Shown here piece by piece: positions 36,714 through 37,872 of a DNA stretch of 41,589 nucleotides. The translations under genes were made by a program, and so were the position numbers. Position 1 is the first letter of the stretch. Each line of letters starts with the position of its first letter. Under the pieces are notes generated by a model that saw only the letters and a list, made by a program, of their open reading frames with translations, had not been told where the DNA came from and did not search any database. Source of the stretch: Thermoplasmata archaeon (GTDB lineage Archaea; Thermoplasmatota; Thermoplasmata; Lutacidiplasmatales; UBA184); the NCBI GenBank assembly GCA_027315455.1, contig DAHUXZ010000019.1, forward strand, positions 1 through 41,589. The letters are read 5' to 3'.

Positions 36714-37086
36714 ATGCGCATCGAGAAGACTCGGGGCATGAGACAAGCGATCCGCGAGCGGAAGCGCTCGCGAAACGAGGAGCCCTCGTCAGAAGAACGC
36801 CTGGCCGAGCCCGAGCGACCCCCGCGGTCGCCCGATGCTCAGTGTGGTACAACCGCGTACGGAGGCGGAGAGGGAACTGGCGCGCCACTCACGCCAACGT
36901 AGTGCCATTCAGCCTTCTGGCCGGCCCCTGATGGATGATTCCTCTTTGGCGTAAGTTCTTTCCGGCCCCGCGTGCCCTCGCGAAGCGAGGGCATTGTGGC
37001 AGCGCTCGTTCTCGAGAACACGCTCGACCCGGACCGCGAGGGAGAAGTGCCCCTCTCCCAGCCCGAAAGAGACGAACTCGTCACGG
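36714..37086. other. Gap without a convincing gene, with one perfect hairpin
   Basis: Between the transposase remnant and the promoter of the next secreted-protein gene. Short frames lack any recognisable domain. The only clear structure is the hairpin at 36973-36993. Confidence 0.4.
36973..36993. repeat. Perfect 9-bp stem hairpin with GAA loop
   Basis: TGCCCTCGC-GAA-GCGAGGGCA. Nine perfect pairs and a three-base loop make a stable cruciform or RNA hairpin. There is no T-run after it. It could be a terminator-like structure, an end hairpin of a small transposon, or a REP-like unit. Confidence 0.5.
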
Positions 37087-37093
37087 TTATGTA
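37087..37093 (+). promoter_or_regulatory. TATA box for the secreted-protein gene at 37116
   Basis: TTATGTA is centred 26 bp before ATG 37116, so transcription should begin at or next to that ATG (leaderless). Confidence 0.55.
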
Positions 37094-37094
37094 C

Positions 37095-37108
37095 CGATGC
37101 GCGCATCG
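37095..37108. promoter_or_regulatory. Perfect 14-bp palindrome between TATA box and start
   Basis: CGATGCGCGCATCG lies 1 bp after the TATA box and 7 bp before ATG 37116. A dimeric protein bound here would cover the transcription start, as repressors do. No matching site was noticed elsewhere in the window. Confidence 0.4.
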
Positions 37109-37115
37109 TGCTAGC

Positions 37116-37872
37116 ATGCCACATCACTCCACCACCCCCCCTCCCCCCCCACTTCCGGCGCCGTGCCGGGGTGCCGTTCGCCCTCGGCACCGCGCTCCTT
37201 CTGCGCTTTGTAGTGGTCCCGGCGGCTACCGCGATGCCGAGCTTTAGTCCTAAGTACGTCATCGCATGCACTGGTCCGTCGCCCGGCGTTGCAATCCCCA
37301 CCAACATCCCCGTGGCCTCCTATCGTGGCCTGTCCACTTCGGCGTCGTCGGGCATGTTCCGCCTCCTGAGTCAGACTGCCGGGCCCGTCGGGACTACCGC
37401 CGGCGGCAGTATCACTTCGCAGGAGTTCTTCACCGTGGATCCGTCACCATCCGGATGTTACCAGCCGACCAACTCGTACGTCACGGCTACAGCGACCTTC
37501 ACGTTCGCCTTTTCCGGAACGATGAACGAGTCGATCACCTGCGGCACAGCGACCTCTGCGGATGTTTCCCTAACGCTCTACGCCAACGTGTACTCCTCCG
37601 CCTCCGGCGCGCTCTTCGCCACGCCCCCGTCGAACCTTGCGGTCAGTCAGAACATCAACTGTGGCGCGGGCCCGACGAGCTTTACCTCGACGGTCCGCGG
37701 AGCGACGGTCACTACGGGGTCTTTCGCGGTCAGCAGCGGGGTGAAGTACGGGTTCTACGCCGAGGTCGATATTCACAATGACGTCAACACCGGCGTCGGA
37801 GGATACGGGAGCTCGAGCGAAAGTGGCTTCCAGGTCACGCTGAGCTCCGTCAGCTGCGCGGCCTGTCCTTAG
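37116..37872 (+). CDS. Secreted protein, unknown; start separated from signal peptide by a frame-breaking C tract
   Basis: The mature part is a beta-rich, Ser/Thr-rich exported protein with about six cysteines, of unknown function. A strong signal peptide precedes it: HFRRRAGVPFALGTALL then FVVVPAATA. The promoter points to ATG 37116, which gives MPHHSTTPPPPPLP and then runs through C7-T-C8. As written, that tract leaves the reading in the wrong frame. Loss of one C, or gain of two, would join ATG 37116 exactly to the Arg-rich n-region of the signal. Without a shift, the nearest start in the correct frame is GTG 37171, inside the signal and after its Arg residues, giving a 233-residue product. 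Codon use is more A/T-tolerant than in the left part of the window. No anchor is seen at the C terminus. Confidence 0.6.
37135..37150 (+). repeat. C7-T-C8 homopolymer tract inside the 5' coding region
   Basis: Seven Cs, one T, eight Cs. This slippage-prone tract lies between the likely start codon and the signal peptide of the secreted protein, and the frame is broken across it. It may be a contingency (phase-variation) switch or a sequencing miscount. Confidence 0.7.

Follow-up and report, generated by a model that had tools for sequence, protein, structure and literature searches.

The window analysed here, a stretch of 41,589 nucleotides with a GC content of 72%, is contig C10 of the genome of a Thermoplasmata archaeon (G000; 1.98 Mb in 87 contigs, completeness 94%). 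It carries a gene for a small, predicted secreted protein and, downstream of it, a gene for a large secreted protein. Between the likely leaderless start codon of the small gene and its signal peptide lies a poly-C tract interrupted by a single T, and the start codon and the signal peptide stand in different reading frames. The features of the locus are listed in Table 1.

Table 1. Features of the small secreted-protein locus and of the adjoining gene (positions in the window)
Feature	Position	Strand	Basis
Conserved promoter/leader block	37070..37115	+	Abrupt onset of similarity to both sister-MAG copies
TATA-like box TTATGTAC	37087..37094	+	First base 29 nt before the ATG; conserved in copies
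Likely leaderless start ATG	37116..37118	+	Kept, with unchanged spacing, in L003 and L006
ATG 37116 reading as assembled, 43 codons then TAG	37116..37247	+	Translation
C7-T-C8 tract	37135..37150	+	Sequence, genome-wide pattern searches
Signal-peptide n-region HFRRRAG, +1 frame	37150..37170	+	All four changes against L005 synonymous, at third positions
Hydrophobic core and mature secreted protein (stop 37870-37872)	37171..37869	+	Homologues L003 (68%), L004 (47%), L005 (85%), L006 (76%); dN/dS about 0.2
Large secreted protein gene, 782 aa	37993..40341	+	Adjoins the small gene in 5/5 copies

The search for relatives of the small protein covered 60 relatives, 78 genomes from the genus and 400 from the class, together with genome contigs and viral contigs. 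Among all genomes searched we found five copies in two sister MAGs: the window copy, L003 (contig C26) and L004 (contig C55) in its own genome, and L005 and L006 in the sister MAG YF1.bin60. The other genomes of the 78-member genus, the 400 class genomes and the viral contigs yielded no close family member, and within these searches the tract-bearing clade is confined to the two genomes. The only distant relatives in the genus, L020 and L021, have approximately 30% identity and no C-tract at the 5′ end. Upstream of L003, near the contig end, a frame on the minus strand (L003:61-620) resembles an IS630-type transposase by eye.

Searches of Pfam and of PDB sequences returned nothing convincing for the small protein, and structure models were of low confidence (mean pLDDT 52 and 35); Foldseek matches (best E 2e-3, TM about 0.3) pointed to jelly-roll lectins and were set aside as evidence. 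The family of the large protein is broader, with members in 29 of the 78 genus genomes and up to about a dozen matches in each. It has no Pfam match, and weak hints from models point to a Rossmann-like (vWA-like) N-terminal domain. Among 30 loci of the large gene (the best match per genome), a run of at least eight Cs precedes it only at the window and L006 loci, and other members of the large family are preceded by a different secreted protein (G007 contig C38, G000 contig C87).

The first-pass annotation had taken a TATA box to point to a leaderless start at ATG 37116, and this reading holds: the TATA-to-ATG distance is identical in the window copy, L003 and L006, with CTAAGTAC at that spacing in L003. 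Over these 29 nt the window copy matches L006 at 29/29 positions, L005 at 27/29 and L003 at 20/29. In L005 and L004 the equivalent position is occupied by ACG (L005:4946-4948 and L004:1399-1401), which may be a non-canonical start or the mark of a silent copy. Sliding identity rises from random to 0.95 (L006) and 0.85 (L005) at 37070, and because homology between the copies begins there, starts farther upstream were rejected. GTG 37106 was also discarded as a start; although it shares the signal frame, L003 offers no equivalent and the TATA box lies too near.

As assembled, translation from ATG 37116 yields MPHHSTTPPPPPLPAP... and runs into a TAG stop at 37245-37247. The signal-peptide frame, represented by GTG 37171 (offset 55), is +1 relative to the ATG and open to the stop at 37872. 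The frame break reported earlier between the start and the signal peptide is thus exact, with the tract resolving into C7 (37135-37141), T (37142) and C8 (37143-37150). The repair proposed with it also agrees with our translations: removal of one C joins the ATG to the signal peptide and gives MPHHSTTPLPPHFRRRAGVPFALGTALLLRFVVVPAATA-MPSF, with the joined signal peptide reading MPHHSTTPLPPHFRRRAG-VPFALGTALLLRFVVVPAATA-MPSF, and the addition of two Cs likewise restores the frame. By inspection, and with the support of the paralogues, HFRRRAG plus the hydrophobic core appears to form a complete signal peptide, as had been suggested.

In three of the five copies a C-tract follows straight after the ATG (C7TC8 in the window copy, C10 in L003 and C8 in L006). 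In all three the signal frame is +1, so that a change of a single unit, one C fewer, joins the ATG to the signal peptide. L005 lacks a tract and stands in frame with HFRRRAG. L004 likewise lacks one and carries an in-frame TGA before a usable GTG. A comparison of tract length in related genomes, recommended in the first-pass annotation, therefore shows a length that differs by copy and a phase that does not.

Such tracts are rare in the host genome. C7TC8 occurs once in the 1.98 Mb, and the window tract is the single site that matches C16 with at most one mismatch. Runs of at least nine Cs occur at 10 distinct sites (both strands counted), and of the genome's two C10 runs, one occupies the corresponding position in the paralogue L003. 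The C16-like run and the C10 of the paralogue, both within 35 nt of the ATG, are thus repeats far longer than is usual in this genome that lie at the 5′ end of a coding sequence, and the tract together with the frame break exceeds chance.

The frames behind the tract are open, and dN/dS is about 0.2 in every pair of the tract clade (0.20 for the window copy with L003 and with L005, 0.21 with L006), similar to or lower than the value for the downstream partner gene. Because dN/dS is this low and the dS between paralogues exceeds 1 (1.14 for the window copy and L003), the gene does not appear to be decaying, nor the tract to be a fossil. Since the tract has also altered over this distance, it was presumably retained or regenerated rather than inherited unchanged. 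These values indicate that the coding body is under purifying selection despite the break and that the gene is alive. That the breaks are genuine frameshift mutations in a decaying gene family is very improbable in the face of these open frames and ratios, even though all five copies are odd at the 5′ end, with a frame break, ACG for ATG or, in L004, an in-frame TGA.

Substitutions on the two sides of the tract bear on where the protein begins. Before the tract, all three differences between the window copy and L006 fall at third positions of the ATG frame, and after it, all four differences from L005 within HFRRRAG fall at third positions of the signal frame; these are small numbers from pairs picked after looking. 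The differences after the tract between the window copy and L006, and between L005 and L006, are mixed across codon positions (2, 1, 3 each). Together with the conserved Arg-rich n-region, the third-position patterns speak for a protein that starts ahead of the tract and is read across it. The other possibility is that the true start lies downstream, at GTG 37171 or an equivalent CTG, with the ATG and tract forming an untranslated leader or encoding a Pro-rich leader peptide. It would account for the GTG present at the equivalent site in the window copy, L006 and L004 (CTG in L005) and for the replacement of ATG by ACG in L005 and L004. However, a protein started there would lose the Arg-rich n-region that is kept before the hydrophobic core (HFRRRAG, HSRRALG and, distantly, SPRRGFAG in L020) and that changes only synonymously between the window copy and L005. 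Moreover, the C10 copy L003 has no ATG, GTG or TTG between the tract and the hydrophobic core, and nothing resembling a Shine-Dalgarno sequence was seen at a suitable distance. Because of the synonymous conservation and the situation in L003, initiation at GTG 37171, named earlier as an outcome that would speak against the frame-switching idea, is disfavoured, and we consider a downstream start quite unlikely.

Because homopolymers are classic sites of miscounting, the frame breaks could also be consensus or assembly errors, the real tracts being in frame with one C over-called; the contig names of YF1.bin60, which give a low assembly coverage (about 1.5-1.7), fit this explanation. As a control we collected runs of at least nine Cs within 24 nt after an ATG at 88 other sites in the genus and examined 80. 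Of these, 40 have a clear coding signal behind the tract, and 23 of the 40 continue in the ATG frame. Most of the remaining coding sites use another frame with an upstream start of its own or are internal to other genes. One clear frame break was found, in an MscS gene of G066 (L123, G066:C36 near 5993, minus strand), where a C9 run in the first codons has one base more than a 92%-identical relative (L197, G068:C10). The rates leave out a crude frame scan by codon usage, whose hits were mostly artefacts of overlapping genes. In the host genome, the testable G9 tracts within coding sequence are in frame, such as those in a GHMP-kinase-like gene (L007) and in L015. ATG-near C9 runs show no excess in the genus (101 matches versus 99 in the reversed control, summed table), and the feature is therefore specific to this locus.

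With 23 control genes in frame against one clear break, three broken copies out of three lie far above the background, and because long tracts are in frame both in the genus and in the host genome, systematic over-counting of Cs does not explain them. The one extra C in the unrelated MscS gene speaks for miscounting, but the same extra C would have had to arise at three independent loci in two assemblies, where two of the runs are merely C8 or C7 plus C8. We therefore regard a miscount, the ordinary alternative in the first-pass annotation, as unlikely, given three alleles of the same phase and in-frame C9 tracts elsewhere. Two diverged relatives of the gene are broken by the same single base at C-runs of their own. 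The break is therefore probably no sequencing slip but a real device, for on/off switching or for recoding.

Two kinds of device come into question. The explanation that we consider best, although we hold it tentatively and at somewhat less than even confidence, is a contingency (phase-variable) locus built on poly-C, of which the assembly shows the OFF state. Transcription would start at or next to ATG 37116 and produce a leaderless mRNA, whose first codons would cross the C-tract and lead into an Arg-rich signal peptide, that of a small beta-rich protein destined for secretion. During replication, slipped-strand mispairing would alter the number of Cs, so that one in three lengths would join the ATG to the signal peptide (ON), whereas the assembled length would be OFF and lead to a 43-residue dead-end peptide. 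What can be read from the sequences is the anatomy of the locus, a frame break that recurs in three diverged copies from two genomes, and purifying selection on the body; a tract that varies in length in the population and toggles secretion would be the step beyond them. Replication slippage agrees with where the tract lies, with its base and its lengths, with the way it turns over and with a product that is predicted to be secreted. The rarity of the tract, the differing C-tracts at the same place after a TATA-spaced ATG and the two flanks, each of which looks translated in its own frame, all favour such a locus.

Several observations weigh against it. A T interrupts the window tract, the C8 of L006 is near the lower length limit for high slippage, and the family is carried by two MAGs only, of which YF1.bin60 has low coverage. 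All three tract copies are +1, and an in-frame (ON) tract allele was not found among them; the copy that is in frame, L005, has neither a tract nor an ATG, and for these reasons we lowered our claim that the locus belongs to the contingency class. If the phases were random, the chance that three tract copies share the +1 phase would be 1/9 to 1/27, which also counts against phase variation.

Because of this uniform phase, programmed or leaky +1 ribosomal frameshifting on CCC-C, which was absent from the first-pass annotation, is also allowed, and the phase appears to favour it. Here a tRNA-Pro would slip one C forward and a fixed fraction of ribosomes would reach the signal frame with the DNA unchanged; RNA polymerase slippage on the C-run would have the same outcome. 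Slippery CCC-C lies in the 0 frame, and the shift needed in all three tract copies is exactly the direction in which tRNA-Pro slips on CC[C/U]-[C/U], an m1G37-dependent event (PMC7577736, PMC4519876). In addition, the tract-free copy L005 is in frame, and the sole clear exception among the genus controls, the C9 run of the G066 MscS gene, needs +1 as well. On the other hand, a conserved stimulatory element was not found, since the downstream folding beats shuffled sequences in the window copy only (z -3.4). The expected efficiency is also low, with up to about 1% of +1 shifts at CCC-C beside AUG in E. coli (PMC4519876), and the sole direction of frameshifting shown for an archaeal cellular gene is -1 (PMC8211752). 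We thus rate frameshifting as rather unlikely, though it is the strongest of the rival explanations. A further-reaching version, to which we give little credence, is that poly-C runs serve as programmed +1 sites that tie the secretion of surface proteins to tRNA-Pro modification and poly-proline elongation, the +1 phase being kept by selection while the run turns over.

Phase variation by homopolymer slippage is textbook knowledge in bacteria. The phase-variable reading of our locus resembles these bacterial contingency loci in having a homopolymer in the first codons of a gene for a surface or secreted protein (predicted as such here), a frame that a one-base change would toggle and a short OFF peptide. 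It differs in being archaeal, leaderless and GC-rich (72%), in the T that interrupts the tract of one copy and in a length variation that is known between copies only. Homopolymeric contingency loci of bacteria (the poly-C/poly-G of Helicobacter pylori pldA, the poly-A of Listeria inlA) have been surveyed together with 18 archaeal genomes, with poly(C)/poly(G) tracts showing no bias to 5′ ends (PMC2831843). In the literature searched, no clear archaeal case of homopolymer phase variation in a surface protein was found.

The position of CCC-C near the start codon and the need for exactly +1 in three of three copies recall +1 shifting by tRNA-Pro (PMC7577736, PMC4519876), which, however, is known as an error or from suppressor strains of bacteria and not as a programmed device for an archaeal secreted protein; a conserved stimulator is lacking here. 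Like the locus described here, fucA of Saccharolobus solfataricus is an archaeal gene broken at a homopolymer, which differs by one base from that of full-length relatives, but the shift there is in the -1 direction, at an A-rich heptamer and in an intracellular enzyme (PMC8211752).

With a frame-breaking poly-C run behind a leaderless start in each of three diverged copies, spread over two genomes, the question can be tested in existing reads. The other outcome, +1 recoding on CCC-C in archaea, would be no less informative.

Two further observations concern other genes. Within the window, an aldehyde-dehydrogenase-like gene (1660-1832) is open upstream of GTG 1832, with no ATG, GTG or TTG after the preceding stop. 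In mutS of the host genome (G000:C87 near 40545; L204:1546), which is followed by a mutL-like frame, a 4-nt insertion that is absent from the aligned relatives (G007, G084, G089 and others) breaks the frame, possibly reflecting a mutator lineage or an assembly flaw. If real, this break would weaken mismatch repair, raise slippage and make homopolymers less stable in the lineage.
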